Position numbers and translations under genes: made by a program. The notes under the pieces were generated by a model. The model saw only the letters and a list, made by a program, of their open reading frames with translations, did not search any database and had not been told where the DNA came from. A stretch of 64,000 bases of DNA from Croceibacterium sp. TMG7-5b_MA50 (GTDB taxonomy: Bacteria > Pseudomonadota > Alphaproteobacteria > Sphingomonadales > Sphingomonadaceae), in contig NZ_CP156082.1 of NCBI RefSeq assembly GCF_039830145.1, positions 2,808,001 to 2,872,000 on the forward strand. The letters are read 5' to 3'. This document shows positions 5,251 to 13,307 of the stretch, one piece after another (the first letter of the stretch is position 1; every line of letters begins with the position of its first letter).

Positions 5251-5910
5251 ATGAGGGTATCGGCACTTCTTCTTTTCTGCGTCATCGCGGCCAGCCCGGC
5301 CGCGGCGCAGGATAAGGCCAGCCGTGTTATGCTGGGCGTGACCGGCGGCACGCTGGGCATCGGGCCGGAGGTGACGTTCCGCGCCTCTCCGGTCGTGGGT
5401 GTGCGCGCCAACGCGACCTTTCTCGGCTTCGGGCATGAGGTGGACTCGAGCGACATCACCTATGATGGCGACCTGGGGCTGAAGTCGGGCGGCGTGATGC
5501 TGGACCTGCATCCGCTGCGCAATGGCTTCCGCATCTCCGGCGGTGCGCGGATCGGCGACAACCGGGTGGACCTGCTGGCAACGCCATCGAGGAGCGTGCA
5601 GATCGGCAATGATGTTTACACCGAAAACCAGATCGGCACCGTGCGCGGCCATGTGGCGGCGGACGATTTTGCGCCCGTAGCGACGATCGGCTGGTCGGGC
5701 GGGCTGACGCGCGGGGTGAAGCTGGGGTTCGAGGCCGGCGCCATGTTCCACGGCACGCCGCGGGTGAACGACCTCGTCGTGACAGGGCCGTTCGCGAACA
5801 ATCCCGCGGTGCTCGCCAGCCTGGTGGAGGAAGAGGCCGAGATCGAGAGCGATATTGACGGCTACAAGGTCTATCCGGTGGTGCAGGTGTCGCTCGGCTA
5901 CGCCTTCTGA
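5251..5910 (+). CDS. Outer-membrane beta-barrel protein
   Basis: The 219-residue product starts with a clear Sec signal peptide (MRVSALLLFCVIAAS, with cleavage near AAAQ). The rest is a run of alternating polar and hydrophobic strands ending in Gly-Tyr-Ala-Phe, the terminal aromatic typical of proteins inserted by the Bam machinery. It resembles the small OmpA/OmpW-like barrels common in sphingomonads, but no specific substrate can be read. It stands alone about 100 bases after treY, with its own weak AGGA site, and ends at a hairpin shared with the convergent response-regulator gene. Confidence 0.7.
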   Translation: MRVSALLLFCVIAASPAAAQDKASRVMLGVTGGTLGIGPEVTFRASPVVGVRANATFLGFGHEVDSSDITYDGDLGLKSGGVMLDLHPLRNGFRISGGARIGDNRVDLLATPSRSVQIGNDVYTENQIGTVRGHVAADDFAPVATIGWSGGLTRGVKLGFEAGAMFHGTPRVNDLVVTGPFANNPAVLASLVEEEAEIESDIDGYKVYPVVQVSLGYAF

Positions 5911-6425: not shown

Positions 6426-8843
6426 TCACGCGACGGCGGCCAGCGGATGGGCGAAACTGTCTCTCAGCGCACCAAGCACGCGGGTGGCGGGCACCGGCTT
6501 CGCCAGCACGGTGGCGGCAGGCATGGTGGCGAAGGCCGGCAGATCGCCCTCGCCCGCCAGCACGATCGCCGGCACTCCCGATTCGGCCAGCGCCGCCAGC
6601 AGCGCCGGGGTGCAGCCGGCGCCGTCGGCCAGCAGCCCGTCCAGCAGGCCGTCGGCCAGCGAGTCTAGGGCAGCCGCGGCATCGTCCAGCGGCACTGCCG
6701 CCGCACAATGGGCGCGCAGCAATCCGGCGAGTTTCAGGCGCCGGGCGCCATCGGGATCGACGATGCCGATGCGTGCATCGGCAAGGCTGGCCGGCACGAC
6801 GCGCGGTGCCGCCGCGACTTCGCGCAGCGGCAGTTGCAGGGTGAAGGTGCTGCCGATCCCCGGTGTGCTCGCCAGCGTGATCGCACCGCCCAGCGCCTCG
6901 GCCAGATTGCGGCTGATGGCGAGGCCCAGGCCCGTGCCGCTGAACTGGCGGGTCATGGCGCTGTCCACCTGGTGGAACGCCTCGAACACCGCGGCCTGGT
7001 CTTCCGGCGCAATGCCGATGCCGGTGTCCGACACCGAGAGGATCAGGGTGCCGGCGCTGCGGTCCGTCGCGGCCACCAGCCGTACCTCTCCGCTTGCGGT
7101 GAACTTGATCGCGTTGGACAGGAGGTTGTGCAAGATCTGCCGCACGCGCGCGCCATCGGTCTCGATCGCGCCGGCCGGCAGGTCCAGTTCGGCCACCAGC
7201 CGCAGGCCCTTGGCCGCGGCGCGCGCGCGCCACAGGGCCAGCGCATCGTCCACGATCGGGCTTAGGCGGGTGGGCGCGGGCTCCACCGTGATCTCCCCCG
7301 CCTCCATCTTGGCGAGGTCGAGGATGTCGTCGACCAGCACGCGCATGGTTTCGCCCGCGCCATGCACCAGTTGTACCTGCTCGCGCGTCTCGCCCGCCAC
7401 GTCCGGGCGCGTCAGCATGACCTGCGTCATGCCCAGGATGCCGTTCAGCGGGGTGCGGATCTCGTGGCTGGTCATGGCCAGGAAATCGGTCTTGGCGCGC
7501 AGCGCGCGTTCCAGGTCGGTGTTGACGCGGGTCAGCACAGTGTTCGCGCTGCGCACCTGGTTGCGGCTGCGGCGGATCGACAGGGTGGTCCAGCCCATCA
7601 GGCCCAGCAGCACGGCGGCGCCCGCGCCCAGCAACGCGAAGATGGTCGTGCGGAAGGTGCCGCGCTGGCGTTCCAGCTGCACGTCGCGCTGCAACTGATC
7701 CTCGCGCAACTGGGCGATGCGCAGGTTCTGGTTGGCGAAGTCGAACTGCGCGGCCATCAGCTGCGAGCTGGCGGTGGCGGTCAGTTGCCGCGCCTCGCTG
7801 TCGATGCGGTTGAACGCGGCCAGGTGGTCATAGGCGCGCTGCACCTGCCCTTGCCGGTGGTAGATGCGTGCCGCCAGCTCGTGGAACTCGCGCGCGGTCA
7901 TGTCGGTGCGGGAAAGGTCCCGGCCGGCAAAGGCCCGGTCCAGCAGCTCGACCGCGCCGGCATCGTTGCCGCGCGCCGCGGCGATCTTGGCCAGAACGCC
8001 GAACAGGGTCCAGCGCCATTCGGCGGCATCCGGCGTCTGGCTCAGCGTCAGGGCGCGATGGATGTTGCGGGTTGCATGGCTCAGCTTGCCGCCATCCACC
8101 TGCACCAGCGCCAGATTGCCCAGGATGCGCGCCTCCAGCAAGGGGCTGCCCAGCTTGCGCGCATCGGTCAGGGCGGCGGCGAACTCCCGTTCCGCCTCCT
8201 GCCAGCGGCCCAGTGTGCGCAACGCCTCCCCATTGTTGTTGTGCGCCGCCAGCGTCACCGCCGGGTCGTCGTCATACAGGTCCAGCGCCTGCGAGTTGTA
8301 GCGCAGCACCCGGCTGTAATCGCCGCCTTCGCCATACAGCTGAGCGATGTCCATCAGGGCAATGGCTTGGCTGCGCGGCTCGCCTGCGATGCGGAACACG
8401 TCATGCGCGGCCAGAAGGTCGGCCAACGCCGCCTGCACCTGCCCCTTGATGCTGGAGAGGGAGCCTCGCGCCCGCAGCAGGTCGCCCATCAGCTTGGTGC
8501 GCGGGGCATGCGCCTCGGCCAGTGCCAGTGCCTCATCGACCTCGCTCTGCGCCTCGGTCATGCGGTTGAGGCCGATCAGCGCCTCCGTCCGCAGCCACAG
8601 GGCCGTCGCCCGCGCGATGGCGCCCTGTGATCCGGGAAGAGCGGCGGCACGGACCAGCGCCCGGTCCGCCGCCGCCAGCGCCGTTCGCGGGTCGGCCATC
8701 ATCGCCGCCTTGGCATCGGTGATCGCCCGGTCGAAGGCGGTGGCGGCGGCGGAGGTCGCCGCCGCGGAGCCCTGAGCCGGCACTGCCTGCACGGGTGCGG
8801 CGAGCAGGAGCAGGGCGGGCAGGAACAGGCGCGTGCTGGTCAT
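6426..8843 (-). CDS. TPR-sensor histidine kinase with degenerate C-terminal receiver
   Basis: The 805-residue product has a signal peptide, then about 350 residues of TPR-like helical repeats, a coiled region and one membrane segment at about 398-420. A HisKA domain follows (phospho-accepting H460 in TSHEIRTPLNG), then HATPase motifs: N box HNLLSNAIKF at about 572, G1 DTGIG at 606 and G2 GTGLG at 636. Residues 690-800 are receiver-like, with the start IGIVDPDG, a candidate Asp at 740 in LLADG and Lys782 in AKP. The conserved Thr/Ser is replaced by Ala and the region is divergent. The TPR part should lie in the periplasm. The partner receiver is encoded just downstream. Confidence 0.88.
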   Translation of the reverse strand: MTSTRLFLPALLLLAAPVQAVPAQGSAAATSAAATAFDRAITDAKAAMMADPRTALAAADRALVRAAALPGSQGAIARATALWLRTEALIGLNRMTEAQSEVDEALALAEAHAPRTKLMGDLLRARGSLSSIKGQVQAALADLLAAHDVFRIAGEPRSQAIALMDIAQLYGEGGDYSRVLRYNSQALDLYDDDPAVTLAAHNNNGEALRTLGRWQEAEREFAAALTDARKLGSPLLEARILGNLALVQVDGGKLSHATRNIHRALTLSQTPDAAEWRWTLFGVLAKIAAARGNDAGAVELLDRAFAGRDLSRTDMTAREFHELAARIYHRQGQVQRAYDHLAAFNRIDSEARQLTATASSQLMAAQFDFANQNLRIAQLREDQLQRDVQLERQRGTFRTTIFALLGAGAAVLLGLMGWTTLSIRRSRNQVRSANTVLTRVNTDLERALRAKTDFLAMTSHEIRTPLNGILGMTQVMLTRPDVAGETREQVQLVHGAGETMRVLVDDILDLAKMEAGEITVEPAPTRLSPIVDDALALWRARAAAKGLRLVAELDLPAGAIETDGARVRQILHNLLSNAIKFTASGEVRLVAATDRSAGTLILSVSDTGIGIAPEDQAAVFEAFHQVDSAMTRQFSGTGLGLAISRNLAEALGGAITLASTPGIGSTFTLQLPLREVAAAPRVVPASLADARIGIVDPDGARRLKLAGLLRAHCAAAVPLDDAAAALDSLADGLLDGLLADGAGCTPALLAALAESGVPAIVLAGEGDLPAFATMPAATVLAKPVPATRVLGALRDSFAHPLAAVA

Positions 8844-8902: not shown

Positions 8903-11899
8903 TCAGAAGCCGAGGCGGAGATTGCCGCCCACGGTCCATGATGCCCGGTCCACCTGCACTGCCCCCAGTTCCGCGCTGGTGAACAGGCTTGCGGCCCCGC
9001 GTCCGTCAGCGACCTCGGCGCCATACAGCGCCTCCGCTACCAGCCGGCGCTGTTCGGGTGCACCGATCCGGGCATCGCGCGCAACCAGGCCGATCTCGCC
9101 CGTCTGGCGGTCGATCACCTCCCGCTGACGGTACTGGAACGTGCCGTCCTCAGTCGTCAGCGGCTGAGCCAGTGACAGGCGCAGCCGGTCACTGCCGCCC
9201 AACAGGGCCTGCTTGGCGATGCCGAGCTGGAAGGCGGTGCTGCGGGTGTTCGACAATTGCAGCGCCGCATCACGCCCGCTGGTGCTGTTCGCCACTGTGC
9301 CGCTGGCGAACAAGCTGAACCCCGCCGCGAGAGCCGCATCGGCTGCCAGCGTCACGCCGGTGCTGGTGGCGCCGCGGCCGAAATCGCCGGGATTGACGGA
9401 ACGAACGCCCAGAAAAGCGCCATCTTCCTGCAGCCGAGTGGCGGATGCGGACAAGGCGATCGCCTGCGCCGGCCGCCAGGTGAGCTTGGCCTGCGTGGCC
9501 ATCGCACGGTAGTCGCCCATGCGTTCCAGCAGAACGGTGTCCGCCGGATCGAAGAACGCCCCTGCCAGGTCCTGCTCGATCGCGCGGTCCTGCCGCGTCA
9601 CGCCGACTTGCAGGTCCACCCCGCGCATCAGCCGCACAGTGCTGGCGACATGCGCGCCGCCGCTGGCGAAGCCGAGCAGCGGGTTCGCGCCGCCGGTCTG
9701 CGGATTGAAGTCGCCCGTCATCTGCAGGCCGGCCGTGCCGCCCAGCAGCAACGCGCCGTCACCATGACCGAAGCCGACGGAGAAGGCGCTGTCGGGCGCG
9801 GTCAGTTCCATGCTGGTGCGCAATTGCAGACGGTCGATGCCCTGCGATCCCGGCACCTGCTGCTGCCGGCCGCGCATGGTGAGCGTCCAGCCATCAGCCA
9901 GCGGCGCGGTCGTCCCCGGCATGCTGTCGGTCAGCGCCGCGATGTGCCGGTTGCTGGCGCCGCCGCCAATCCATCCGATCATCCGGTGATAGACGAATTC
10001 CTGGAATGAACGACCGGCCAGGCTGGCGTTGAACAGGCGGTTCGTCAGCGGGATCAGGAAGTCACGCTCCGCGCTGTCGACCTTTTCGAAAGCGGTGAAG
10101 TAGGCGTCGCGTGCCGTCCAGGATGCCTGTACGCCATTGCGGCGCAGCGTGACGGCGGCAACCTCCTGCGTCTGGAAACCGTTGACGAGGTAGTATTTCA
10201 GGGTGCTGAAATCGAGCGGCGCCTGCGACGCCTCGATATCCAGCAGGCCATGGCCGTAGACCGGATCGACGCCCGGCGCGCCCAGGTCCTGTGCGCTTTC
10301 CAGGATGATCTTGGCCGTGGCGCGTGGTGCGTTCTTCAGCCAGGGCCAGCGATCATGCAGCAGCGCGATCGCACCCGATACCAGCGGTGCGGCGAAGGAG
10401 GTGCCGGACATGCGGGTGACGCCGCCGTGGCCGTCGGACACCAGGATCAGTTCGCCCGGCGCCACCAGGAAGCGGTTCATCAGAAGGCCGCTTTCCTTCA
10501 GGTAGTCCGCCTTCTCGAACGTACCGCGTCCGCGTGCCCAGACGGCGGTGTTCTTGCAGATGCCGCCATCGGTCAGGCACGCGGTGCCGGGAGTGTTGCT
10601 GAAGGGGGAGATCACGCCACCCGGCCCGACCGAACCGACCACCAGGAAGGTGGAATCGAGCGCGCCGTTCATTTCGATATTGGTCGGCTGAGCGACGCCG
10701 TCATTGCCGGCGGCGATGACGTAGGTGACCTTGTCCTTGTGGCTGTCGATCGACGAATGGCGGAACACGCCCCGCCATTCACCCGGCAGCACCTGTCCGC
10801 TGACGCCCAGCGACAGGTTGACGACGCTGGCCCCGGCACGGACGACCGCCTCGACCCCCGTGCGGACATCGGTCCAACTCGCGGTCATGGTGTGGTCGAA
10901 CGGGTTGTAGGCGGCAATGCGCGCATCGGGCGCGATGCCCATCACGCCATGCCCGTCATGCGATGCGACCATCAAGCTGCCGACGGCGGTGCCATGCGGG
11001 TTGGCGACATCCTCGTACCCGCCGTCATACACCACCTTGGATGCGACATCGCTGTCCGCCGCGGCGAAGAAGTCGACCAGGCCGATCGTGGTATTGCGCC
11101 CGCCGCCCTGCACCTGCGTCAGCGCCGGACGCCAGTTGACCGCGTTCATCCAATGATCCGCGCTGTCGAGGCCGGAGAACAGCAGCAGATTGTCATGCCA
11201 GTCGAGCAGCATCAGCTGCCGTTCGACCGGTTCCAGCGTGGCGAGCGATTGCGGGTCCGCGGGATCGAGACCCCATTTGGTCCAGAACGCATCGGCGAAG
11301 CCGCCCGCGAAGGACTGGCCCGTCTTCGCGGTGACACGATCCCCCCAGATGCCGGCGGCGTCCTGCTGCATCTGTTGCAGCAGGCTGGCGACCGCCGCGT
11401 AGTCGCCGCTGGTGCCGGCCCCGGCCCAGGCCTGCAGAGTGGCGGTGCTGTGCGGGAAGAACTGGTCGCTGAACGCCCGGATATAGCCGGTCTGCGGCGA
11501 CAGATCGCCGCCTTCCGGCGTCAGCGTGCCCCAGAACGCGCGGATGTAGCCGGTGTAGGGGTCCAAATCGCCGCCGAATGCGCGAATGTAGCCGGTATGC
11601 GGATCGACACCGCCCGCAAAGGCGCGGATGTAGCCGGTATAAGGCGTGATGTCCCCGTCGAACGCACGGATATAGCCGGTGTGCGGATCGAGAGCCCCCT
11701 CGAACGCGCGGATATAGCCGGTCTGCGGATCGACCGAATGGAAGGCGCGGATATAGCCAGTCATCGGCCGGATCGGCCCGGTCATCGCGGCGGCATTCGT
11801 GTCGCTGCTCTGCGCTGCCGCCGGACTGCCCGCTGCCAGCGGCAGCATCATCATGCCGGCCGTCGCCAGCAGCCCTACCCTGTTGAACCGTGTGCGCAC
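8903..11899 (-). CDS. Secreted subtilisin-like (S8) serine protease with TGYIRAF repeats and C-terminal barrel-like domain
   Basis: The 998-residue product starts at GTG 11899, preceded by a strong AGGAGG; an upstream in-frame ATG at 11941 lacks such a site. A signal peptide ends near PAAAQ. Residues 47-143 carry seven TGYIRAF repeats. The S8 catalytic domain follows: Asp about 276 (IGLVDFF), His about 302 (NPHGTAVGSL), oxyanion Asn about 399 (AAGNDG) and Ser about 501 (MSGTSFAAP). The last 300 or so residues are strand-rich and end in Leu-Arg-Leu-Gly-Phe. This suggests an autotransporter barrel or membrane-embedded tail, so the protease is probably surface-displayed or secreted. Its substrate is unknown. 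Confidence 0.85.
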   Translation of the reverse strand: MRTRFNRVGLLATAGMMMLPLAAGSPAAAQSSDTNAAAMTGPIRPMTGYIRAFHSVDPQTGYIRAFEGALDPHTGYIRAFDGDITPYTGYIRAFAGGVDPHTGYIRAFGGDLDPYTGYIRAFWGTLTPEGGDLSPQTGYIRAFSDQFFPHSTATLQAWAGAGTSGDYAAVASLLQQMQQDAAGIWGDRVTAKTGQSFAGGFADAFWTKWGLDPADPQSLATLEPVERQLMLLDWHDNLLLFSGLDSADHWMNAVNWRPALTQVQGGGRNTTIGLVDFFAAADSDVASKVVYDGGYEDVANPHGTAVGSLMVASHDGHGVMGIAPDARIAAYNPFDHTMTASWTDVRTGVEAVVRAGASVVNLSLGVSGQVLPGEWRGVFRHSSIDSHKDKVTYVIAAGNDGVAQPTNIEMNGALDSTFLVVGSVGPGGVISPFSNTPGTACLTDGGICKNTAVWARGRGTFEKADYLKESGLLMNRFLVAPGELILVSDGHGGVTRMSGTSFAAPLVSGAIALLHDRWPWLKNAPRATAKIILESAQDLGAPGVDPVYGHGLLDIEASQAPLDFSTLKYYLVNGFQTQEVAAVTLRRNGVQASWTARDAYFTAFEKVDSAERDFLIPLTNRLFNASLAGRSFQEFVYHRMIGWIGGGASNRHIAALTDSMPGTTAPLADGWTLTMRGRQQQVPGSQGIDRLQLRTSMELTAPDSAFSVGFGHGDGALLLGGTAGLQMTGDFNPQTGGANPLLGFASGGAHVASTVRLMRGVDLQVGVTRQDRAIEQDLAGAFFDPADTVLLERMGDYRAMATQAKLTWRPAQAIALSASATRLQEDGAFLGVRSVNPGDFGRGATSTGVTLAADAALAAGFSLFASGTVANSTSGRDAALQLSNTRSTAFQLGIAKQALLGGSDRLRLSLAQPLTTEDGTFQYRQREVIDRQTGEIGLVARDARIGAPEQRRLVAEALYGAEVADGRGAASLFTSAELGAVQVDRASWTVGGNLRLGF
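11471..11761 (-). repeat. Seven in-frame TGYIRAF repeats (mostly 42-base period)
   Basis: Within the protease N-terminus the heptapeptide TGYIRAF occurs seven times without a single substitution. The spacings between starts are 13, 14, 14, 14, 14 and 21 residues. The linkers vary but are usually acidic or glycine-rich and end in Pro plus one residue (PQ, PH, PY). The DNA of each copy is nearly identical, with only scattered third-base changes. This suggests recent duplication or strong selection. Confidence 0.95.
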
Positions 11900-11904
11900 C
11901 CGTG

Positions 11905-11911
11905 CCCTCCT
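11905..11911 (-). promoter_or_regulatory. Ribosome binding site deciding a GTG start
   Basis: On the minus strand the sequence AGGAGGG lies a few bases before GTG 11899. It places the protease start 14 codons inside the longest open frame and gives a well-formed signal peptide (MRTRFNRVGLLATAGMM). Confidence 0.7.
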
Positions 11912-12005
11912 GTTGCATGACCCGACTCGGCTGCGGGACATGGGATGATCATGGGCGGGCGCCGGTATGCGGCGGGCAAAGGATCGGGGTTAACGGCGGG
12001 TTACC

Positions 12006-13307
12006 TCAGCCCTGCGTGCTTCCACCCCGTACCAGCCGGACCGTGCCTGCCGGCGCGCGTCGCGCCGGGCGTTCCTCGCCCCGCGTGCGCAGGAAGGCGA
12101 TCAGGTCGGGCAAGGGCACGGGCCGCGATATGTGGTAGCCCTGCAGCGCGTCGCAGCCCATCACCTGCAGCAGCGACTGGCACATGGCGTCCTCCACCCC
12201 CTCCGCGGTGACGGTCATGTCCATGGCATGGGCAAGGTCGATGGAGGCGCGCACGATCAACGGGTCGCGGTTGCTGCTTGTCAGCTGGCTGACGAACATC
12301 TTGTCGATCTTCAGTTCGTTGACGGGCAGCCGCTTCAGATAGGCGAGGCTGGACAGCCCCGATCCGAAATCGTCGATCGCCACCGGGATCTGCGCGGCGG
12401 CGAGCGCCGCCAGCGTCTCGATCGCAGCCTCCGGATCCTCGATCACGCTGGTTTCGGTGATCTCGATCCCGACCCGTGGGGGCGTCCCGGCGATCAGCCG
12501 CATCACCTCCGTCATGAAGGCCTGATCCGCTAGCAGCGGACCGGACATGTTGACGAACACCGTCAACGGCTGGCCCGCCGCCTCCAGCACGGCAAGGTCG
12601 CGCAGCACCTGGCGGATGACCCACAGCGTCACGTCGCGGATCATGCCGGTGCGTTCGGCCAGCGTGATCATGCGCAGCGTGTTGACCGCGCCGAACCGGG
12701 GGGAGACCCAGCGCAGCAGCGCCTCCGCCGACAGGTGCAGGCCGGTGCGGCAGTCCAGCTTCGGCTGGTAGACCAGCGTCAGCTCGTTACCGGCCAGTGC
12801 CCCCGGCAGGGCGCGCAGTAGAGCGAGGTCGTCGAGTTGCACCGGAATGGGCAGTGCGGGATCGACATGGCGGATGCGCCCGCTGCCGGCGTCGTCACCC
12901 GACAGGGTGGCGATTACCGCATCGAACAGCTCGTCCGTGATGGCGGCCTGCCCGGTCGGGATCGCGGCGAAAGCGACGGTGCCGGTCAGCTGGAAACTGA
13001 CGCCGCCGATCTCCAGCCGGCGTTCCAGCAGTGTAAGGCATCCCGCCAGATCGTTGCGCGCGGCGGCGGCGTCGGCTGCGCGGAAGGTGAATTCGATGGT
13101 GTCATGCCCGATCCGGCCGACCGATCCCGCCTGCATCGCCGCCAGGATGCGGTCGGCGGCGCGAACCAGGATGCGGTTGGCGATCTCGAACCCGACCGTG
13201 CGACGGGCTGCGATGAACCGTTCAAAGCTCATCACGGCGAAGTACCGGGTGCGCCGGTCGGCATCGTGCCGGGTGCGGGGGGCCGATCTGCGCGTCATGT
13301 CCGCCAT
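12006..13307 (-). CDS. Cyclic-di-GMP phosphodiesterase (EAL domain) with degenerate GGDEF-like N-terminus
   Basis: The 433-residue product has a C-terminal EAL domain (about 160-415) with all signature motifs: AEALLRW (EAL at 195-197), FVNMS (N253), EITET (282-286), IDDFGSG (D312/D313), LKIDK (K333), AEGVE (E369) and QGYHISRP (Q389). It is therefore expected to hydrolyse c-di-GMP. The N-terminal 150 residues look like a GGDEF fold without the signature; GHDTIEF occupies that place, so no cyclase activity is expected. It has no signal peptide or membrane segment and so is cytoplasmic. It is divergent from the AEC gene and on the same strand as the protease. Confidence 0.88.
   Translation of the reverse strand: MADMTRRSAPRTRHDADRRTRYFAVMSFERFIAARRTVGFEIANRILVRAADRILAAMQAGSVGRIGHDTIEFTFRAADAAAARNDLAGCLTLLERRLEIGGVSFQLTGTVAFAAIPTGQAAITDELFDAVIATLSGDDAGSGRIRHVDPALPIPVQLDDLALLRALPGALAGNELTLVYQPKLDCRTGLHLSAEALLRWVSPRFGAVNTLRMITLAERTGMIRDVTLWVIRQVLRDLAVLEAAGQPLTVFVNMSGPLLADQAFMTEVMRLIAGTPPRVGIEITETSVIEDPEAAIETLAALAAAQIPVAIDDFGSGLSSLAYLKRLPVNELKIDKMFVSQLTSSNRDPLIVRASIDLAHAMDMTVTAEGVEDAMCQSLLQVMGCDALQGYHISRPVPLPDLIAFLRTRGEERPARRAPAGTVRLVRGGSTQG

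Follow-up and report, generated by a model that had tools for sequence, protein, structure and literature searches.

A heptapeptide array at the N-terminus of a Croceibacterium S8 protease covaries with the TPR domain of the sensor encoded in the same locus

Introduction

Why should a protease carry the same seven residues seven times over, between its signal peptide and its catalytic domain? The question is raised by a gene of Croceibacterium sp. TMG7-5b_MA50 (assembly GCF_039830145.1, contig NZ_CP156082.1), which lies in the 64,000-nucleotide stretch of DNA analyzed here (contig positions 2,808,001 to 2,872,000, forward strand). That whole stretch is called the window below, and coordinates are positions within it. 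The original prediction, made from the letters of the window alone, saw in this S8 protease an array of identical TGYIRAF copies separated by variable linkers, argued for selection on a short functional unit, and offered as possible roles a ligand or self-binding motif, a prodomain inhibitor or a cell-surface anchor. Here we report that the copies are kept alike by selection on the peptide, that a sensor with a tetratricopeptide repeat (TPR) domain is encoded in the same conserved locus, and that the repeat unit varies between lineages most closely in step with that domain. Tentatively, we read the array as a multivalent set of ligands for the predicted periplasmic TPR domain of the sensor.

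Results and discussion

The array is built of heptads whose sequence differs between lineages

All seven copies are exact matches on the minus strand (Table 1) and, as first described, they follow the signal peptide and precede the catalytic domain, matched by Pfam at residues 310-565. The measured spacings are, in order, 13, 14, 14, 14, 14 and 21 residues, again as reported. TGYIRAF occurs nowhere else in the 3.24 Mb genome, and when residues 45-165 were shuffled 5000 times no 7-mer was ever present twice. The linkers do differ in sequence, as had been claimed, but they are not free sequence. The true unit is a heptad, x-G-x-[ILV]-x-[PA]-F, and the linkers of the window protein are degenerate heptads of the form x-G-x-[ILV]-x-P-x (EGALDPH, DGDITPY, AGGVDPH, GGDLDPY, WGTLTPE and GGDLSPQ). 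A spacing of 14 is therefore two heptads, 21 is three, and 13 is two heptads minus one residue.

In the window protein no described domain covers the heptads: nothing there exceeded the curated cut-offs of Pfam or NCBIfam, and Peptidase_S8 was the only Pfam match above cut-off in the whole protein. Among 34 aligned family members Pfam found Peptidase_S8 in 34/34 and four other families in one to three members each (E 0.001-0.04). This alignment leaves out L011 (contig end), L020 (N-terminus missing), L025 (reading frame not recovered), L033 and L040 (cut by locus) and L035-L039 (no array, fragment or duplicate). A literature text search for TGYIRAF returned no paper, and related searches found nothing in print on the array, only one unrelated paper and papers on the RRNPPA family discussed below.

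The window alone does not reveal that the heptad unit is present in all relatives examined, with a lineage-specific sequence and weaker heptads as linkers, or that the adjacent TPR sensor is its best-supported partner. An array was found in all 37 segmented proteins (that of the window plus 36 relatives with a readable N-terminus). Each scored above all 200 of its own shuffles (lowest observed score 50.8, highest shuffle anywhere 42.0), and the top score among 171 neighboring open frames used as a control was 23.8. The best repeat lag was 7 or 14 residues in 34 of the 35 proteins having the N-terminus, with a lag of 15 in L016. The units include TGYIRAF (window and C. mercuriale), TGFIRAF (C. 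ferulae), VGHIRTF, KGRIRTF, IGRIRVF, YRNIGAF, YGNVRSF, YGIIRPF, YGNIDPF, RGVVDPF and WGSVSPF, the last in ten copies. They are near-uniform within most proteins and strict in most genes found with a kinase-type sensor (see below), being looser in L016, L042 and L043 of that type and in many genes of the GGDEF-EAL type. Two layouts occur, one in which the lineage-specific heptad alternates with an acidic heptad and one in which all heptads are alike. Core copy number ranges from 3 (L017) to 18 (L034); the latter, the longest array seen, has 18 counted copies of YGFIIPV alternating with variable acidic heptads.

The original prediction had named a lack of conservation in related species as evidence against function. 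For the letters TGYIRAF that is what we found, as among 396 genomes of the order only the window's own has the exact pattern and 395 lack it, with the qualification that this list holds no other genome of the genus and that C. mercuriale, outside that draw, carries it. The heptad pattern, in contrast, is kept by the relatives. The protease family was detected in 21 of the 396 order genomes at E 1e-60, all within the window's family, in two of 289 genomes of the class at E 1e-40, both again within that family, and in 26 of 298 genomes of the family itself at E 1e-20, three of these being S8-only matches below 85 bits. Viral contigs gave 17 pattern matches, none of them a relative, and plasmids gave no match. 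One genome, G041 (L033, L038 and L040), has an S8 array in two copies, located at contig ends or close to them, and at G041:C1:444-1448 a sensor fragment with two internal stops.

The copies are held alike at the peptide level

The seven TGYIRAF copies of the window are encoded by seven different DNA sequences, and thus their identity is held at the level of the peptide. The proportion of synonymous differences (pS) between the core copies is 0.46 and that of nonsynonymous differences (pN) is 0, six of the seven copies being counted (segmentation missed one; no core position was dropped for mismatch). Within genes, core copies gave pS values of 0.30-0.97 and pN values of 0-0.21, compared with pN values of 0.31-0.64 for linker heptads; cores were chosen by motif, which biases their pN downward and makes values near 0 partly a matter of construction.

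The nearest named relatives, Croceibacterium ferulae and C. mercuriale, allow the copies to be followed through a change. C. ferulae has Phe in 7/7 cores where the window protein and C. mercuriale have Tyr, whereas 0 of 14 shared Tyr residues outside the cores changed in C. ferulae, and of 657 sites outside the cores shared by the other two only 33 changed in C. ferulae alone. The Gly codon beside the base that changes Tyr to Phe varies among GGC, GGG, GGA and GGT, and gene conversion here would have to act through tracts a few bases long. The linkers of C. ferulae and C. mercuriale are positionally orthologous (amino acid identity 0.74 on the diagonal and 0.40 off it, permutation p 0.0026). 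Core codons have no such orthology (0.80 and 0.81), so that the case against homogenization rests on codon variety and on the linkers. A second pair, L011 and L017, is 89.5% identical over 305 residues past the helical domain, yet differs by Thr/Ile in 3/3 cores.

Because linkers keep their positions and codons vary freely while the cores change together, homogenization of the DNA does not explain the uniformity and selection on the peptide does. The proposal of selection on a short functional unit is thus strongly supported, by codon variety, pS and pN, concerted core change and orthologous linkers. The copies are held equal to one another whatever the residue, as is expected of one shared binding partner or of mutual stacking. 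Copies that change together by selection rather than by DNA homogenization are unusual, and they point to a single recognizing partner.

A TPR sensor is encoded beside the protease

On the minus strand an EAL-domain gene lies upstream of the protease gene, and downstream come a TPR histidine kinase gene and then a response regulator gene. The sensor matches TPR_12 (E 1.2e-11), and its TPR domain, preceded by a signal peptide and followed by a membrane helix, is predicted from these features to be in the periplasm. A TPR sensor was found by tblastn at 33 of 36 fetched loci, the remaining three being cut by contig ends. In 28 of the 33 it is downstream of the protease gene, on the same strand and adjoining it; two are divergent, two lie upstream past response regulator and EAL genes, and one is downstream on the opposite strand. 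A sister group has, as read from the sequences, a single protein with signal peptide, TPR, membrane helix, GGDEF and EAL, and TPR input therefore appears coupled to cyclic di-GMP (c-di-GMP) domains in the kinase and the GGDEF-EAL types alike. Every one of the 23 genomes in which an S8 match exceeded 400 bits has the sensor family as well. Genome G551 (locus L075) holds S8-plus-sensor systems of both types in tandem; the repeats are GRIRTF-like next to the kinase type and YGNINPF-like next to the GGDEF-EAL type, in both cases the repeat type that goes with the sensor. Beyond the S8, sensor, response regulator and EAL genes, no cluster of neighbors recurred in more than five of the 37 loci clustered.

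In other TPR proteins Asn at positions of this kind holds the backbone of a bound peptide. Positions 203 and 243 of the sensor, separated by one TPR, are Asn in 30/32 and 32/32 linked sensors, as would be expected of a peptide groove by analogy with those proteins.

Histidine kinases with TPRs and GGDEF proteins form a wider family (L107-L134), hardly any of whose members have a heptad array close by. The proposition that the sensor is always paired with an array was rejected, none being found at the threshold used in 27 of 28 further sensor stretches, some of which are short.

The repeat unit covaries with the TPR domain

Distances between repeat units were compared by correlation with distances in the other segments of the locus. 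In the kinase group (n=18) the correlation was highest with the middle part of the TPR domain (r 0.77), followed by its other two parts (0.68 and 0.59); outside the TPR domain r was 0.51 for the kinase part, 0.46 for the helical domain of the protease, 0.45 for its presumed barrel, 0.44 for its catalytic domain and 0.32 for the EAL protein. Given all non-TPR segments, the partial r of the TPR middle was 0.62, matched by 0 of 5000 permutations (which leave kinship in place), with leave-one-out values of 0.58-0.66. Nor does the TPR middle come first in this group simply by marking kinship best, since the kinase part correlates better with the other segments on average (0.69, vs 0.58 for the TPR middle). 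When the two repeat classes were controlled for, r remained 0.66 for the TPR middle, and no segment outside the TPR domain exceeded 0.32. L034 was left out of the group of 18, of the controls by class and by the window's own group (group A), and of all trees.

In the GGDEF-EAL group (n=13; L028, L033, L040 and L051 left out as close to kept rows or cut by locus) the TPR middle again came first, with r 0.87 vs 0.64-0.82 outside the TPR domain, and a partial r of 0.42 (145 of 5000 permutations). Numbering in the covariation test starts eight residues before the sensor Met, its 161-280 being 153-272 of the protein, whereas the Asn counts and the residue pairings that follow run from Met. Single residues also pair with the unit: sensor residue 165 is Asp in 10/10 kinase-type rows without Tyr or Trp at unit position 1 and in 0/9 rows with it, and residue 218 is acidic in 13/13 rows with Arg units and in 1/6 others. 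We do not rely on these residue-by-residue pairings, which are confounded by kinship and come from 2496 tests per contrast.

In one discordant locus the repeats follow the sensor

At L045, where the unit is VGNIRTF, the parts of the locus have different affinities. A tree of the catalytic-plus-barrel part places L045 with L023, L024 and L026 (support 100/100), and forcing it into the window's group costs 198 log units (approximately unbiased (AU) test, p 1.5e-41). The sensor tree places it with the window's group (100/99), the alternative being rejected (AU p 6.6e-4). A tree of the repeat region, from a loose alignment and a quick search, gives the same split as the sensor tree (support 100), and the EAL tree accepts either placement (p 0.20). 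Within the L045 protein the affinity switches near residues 176-250. Here the repeats follow the sensor and not the protease; since the catalytic-barrel part separates the repeats from the sensor gene, agreement of these two flanking parts is not what plain linkage would give.

A ligand array for the sensor, and what weighs against it

Of the three roles originally offered, the ligand motif fits best; for a prodomain inhibitor nothing was found, and a surface anchor is more likely to be the C-terminal beta-rich part. The reading we favor, possible rather than established, is that the array displays multiple heptapeptide ligands to the TPR domain of the same-locus sensor. The S8 protein would be exported over the inner membrane via its signal peptide, and the TPR groove would bind the heptad unit while the N-terminus is in the periplasm, or after the peptides have been cut off. 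There are accordingly two versions, one in which an uncleaved array is sensed during or after export and one in which heptapeptides are freed by proteolysis. Signaling by c-di-GMP might then be altered, in one type through the kinase with its response regulator and the EAL protein, in the other through the output of the GGDEF-EAL protein. As all copies would meet one groove, they would stay alike and change together whenever the groove changes.

If this is right, an input has been found for a family of membrane sensors that probably feeds c-di-GMP signaling in the window's bacterial family, and the lineages offer a natural series of matched ligand-receptor pairs for studies of specificity. With the suggested partner encoded in the same locus, ligand and receptor are directly testable. 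An extended form, which we regard as unlikely, is a Gram-negative peptide-pheromone system in which the protease cuts its own array into identical heptapeptides, to be recognized in the periplasm by the cognate TPR domain of a histidine kinase or GGDEF-EAL protein, each lineage having its own pherotype and the receptor co-evolving with a multi-copy ligand. Such a system would be an independent counterpart of RRNPPA signaling in which a single locus encodes the precursor, the processing protease and the receptor.

Several observations weigh against a sensor ligand. The cytoplasmic part (0.82) trails by little in the GGDEF-EAL group (0.05, jackknife standard error 0.04), and there the TPR middle is a good marker of kinship (0.80). 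When consensus units were used and L034 was kept (n=19), the whole TPR domain gave 0.67 with the helical domain close at 0.63 (kinase 0.53, catalytic 0.51, barrel 0.48). In group A alone (n=9) the TPR parts, at 0.44-0.58 (N-terminal part 0.58, middle 0.44), do not stand apart from the barrel (0.48) and EAL (0.47). The TPR domain was divided into its three parts after a scan, and the second group serves only partly as a replicate. L045 is one discordance in unrooted trees. Its sensor barely separates by plain identity (TPR 0.47 to the window's group vs 0.45 to the other, kinase 0.55 vs 0.54), and the catalytic-barrel part alone may possibly have been replaced, with repeats, sensor and EAL sharing one history. 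The Asn residues are also common in other sensors (24/27 and 22/27, that of L128 among them); L133, with a score under 80, is left out of the Asn counts. The sensor family is wider than the repeats, as 20 of the 43 genomes having it lack an S8 match above 400 bits. Among the 28 further stretches (21 from those 20 genomes and seven from others) only L128 has an array nearby, and this is the N-terminus of the S8 gene of L020, split between contigs. Lastly, a periplasmic sensor would be out of reach of a passenger that is exported all the way to the surface.

Alternative explanations of the array

A structural stalk or solenoid, in which identical residues stack in ladders so that the copies must match and no partner is needed, is in our view on the unlikely side. 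Stacking by itself would account for matching copies, the relatives have heptad periodicity, and weak Adeno_shaft matches were obtained in three of 34 members (best E 0.04). It leaves the covariation with the neighbor's TPR domain unexplained, however, and AlphaFold2 models of five input sequences gave predicted local distance difference test (pLDDT) values of about 23-29 over the repeats vs about 75-92 in the adjoining helical domain of the same sequences, and neither of two AlphaFold2 runs gave an ordered repeat such as a beta-solenoid. The shallow alignment may explain these low values, which are compatible with a flexible ligand array and also with a lack of data.

We consider it quite unlikely that the array instead binds a repetitive surface ligand, such as the organism's own or a neighbor's polysaccharide, with species-specific chemistry driving the joint change of the units. 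Identical repeated units with aromatic and Arg positions, in the passenger position of a presumed outer-membrane protein, are in keeping with such binding, but it does not predict the TPR covariation, and the lack of any widespread additional neighbor cluster (clusters were compared without functional annotation) speaks against it.

That the array is a pseudosubstrate prodomain inhibiting the protease until removed seems improbable. Many subtilase propeptides sit before the catalytic domain, as the array does, but in the kinase group divergence of the repeats tracks that of the catalytic domain no better than it tracks most other segments, catalytic domain and repeats differ in affinity in L045, and a more probable prodomain is the helical domain at residues 165-256. 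A neutral origin of the uniformity, with unequal crossing-over or gene conversion acting on a tandem repeat, is suggested by the copy numbers that differ among relatives; it is rejected as very improbable, contradicted as it is by seven DNA sequences for seven identical peptides and by linkers that stay positionally orthologous while the cores change in concert.

Comparison with known systems

The RRNPPA systems of Bacillota (Rap-Phr, PlcR-PapR) resemble the present one in the TPR domain of the receptor, here with predicted peptide binding. Their receptors are cytoplasmic, bind the processed peptide after its import and act by DNA binding or as phosphatases, whereas here the TPR domain is predicted to be periplasmic, on a Gram-negative membrane kinase or GGDEF-EAL protein; and they have a short propeptide gene beside the receptor, in contrast to an array inside a 1012-residue protein with its own subtilase. 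PMC5007282 describes group-specific pairing of the TPR receptor PlcR with PapR heptapeptides, and PMC10075063 gives propeptide and receptor genes as adjacent. PMC11343458 describes RRNPPA propeptides that carry a single mature pheromone in as many as 8 copies, and their maturation by extracellular proteases; for two propeptides it cites earlier work in which Vpr, AprE and Epr were postulated, and the authors find others for their own. The present system falls outside RRNPPA, from which it differs in where the receptor lies, in its outputs and in its precursor.

NalP and SphB1 are subtilase autotransporters, and the window protease shares with this class the signal peptide, S8 domain and C-terminal beta-rich part ending in Phe. 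It differs in that no autotransporter barrel family appeared among the Pfam matches of the 34 members, and in its additional array and helical domain, of which we know no counterpart in subtilase autotransporters. The EprS model NF051851 matched it weakly (32.9 bits; cut-off 1700 bits). The yeast alpha-factor precursor has identical short peptide copies with variable spacers and is cut by the subtilase Kex2. This is an analogy only, as the heptads are contiguous in many relatives here and cleavage of the array is hypothetical.

Architecture of the protease and its neighbors

Table 1 Features of the window, with positions counted from its first nucleotide
Feature	Position	Strand	Remarks
TGYIRAF copy 1	11741..11761	-	exact match
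TGYIRAF copy 2	11702..11722	-	exact match
TGYIRAF copy 3	11660..11680	-	exact match
TGYIRAF copy 4	11618..11638	-	exact match
TGYIRAF copy 5	11576..11596	-	exact match
TGYIRAF copy 6	11534..11554	-	exact match
TGYIRAF copy 7	11471..11491	-	exact match
S8 protease gene, 1012 residues	8903..11941	-	signal peptide, heptad repeats, helical domain, subtilase domain, C-terminal beta-rich domain ending in Phe
Helical domain, residues 165-256	11174..11449	-	AlphaFold2 crop, pLDDT about 75-92
Peptidase_S8 match, residues 310-565	10247..11014	-	Pfam PF00082, E 5.2e-29
C-terminal beta-rich region, residues 660-1012, presumed outer-membrane barrel	8906..9964	-	many predicted strands, low-confidence model
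TPR histidine kinase, 805 residues	6426..8843	-	signal peptide and transmembrane helix (about residues 400-420) read from sequence; TPRs, HisKA, HATPase_c
Predicted periplasmic TPR sensor domain, residues 30-395; proposed repeat receptor	7659..8756	-	covariation, conserved Asn
Stand-alone response regulator, 130 residues	5971..6363	-	Pfam
EAL-domain protein, 433 residues, upstream of protease gene	12006..13307	-	E 2.1e-61

Residues D290, H316, S515 and N413, which from family knowledge we take to be the catalytic residues, are invariant in 34/34 aligned members, and the closest solved structure by sequence is a cyanobactin protease (E 1.6e-22). The C-terminal residue is Phe in 31 of the 34 members including that of the window, Trp in one, and Leu or Ile in two. 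The C-terminal part is presumed, from its modeled strands, to be an outer-membrane barrel. No barrel family was found there among Pfam matches of the 34 members at E 0.1, and against PDB sequences the best match (E 0.0046, over 82 residues of a toxin-complex chain) was weak and probably due to chance, the next being a porin (E 0.33). For the helical domain, Foldseek gave no PDB match at E 0.001 or better, and the best VIA match was myohemerythrin (Z 6.2, root-mean-square deviation 4.2, 106 residues aligned), a score of a kind common for helical bundles.

A 556-residue open frame antisense to the protease gene (10250-11920, plus strand) most likely just reflects G+C-rich codon use. A 219-residue protein with a signal peptide, a C-terminal Phe and no Pfam match, encoded next to the response regulator gene at 5251-5907 on the plus strand, looks like a small outer-membrane barrel.

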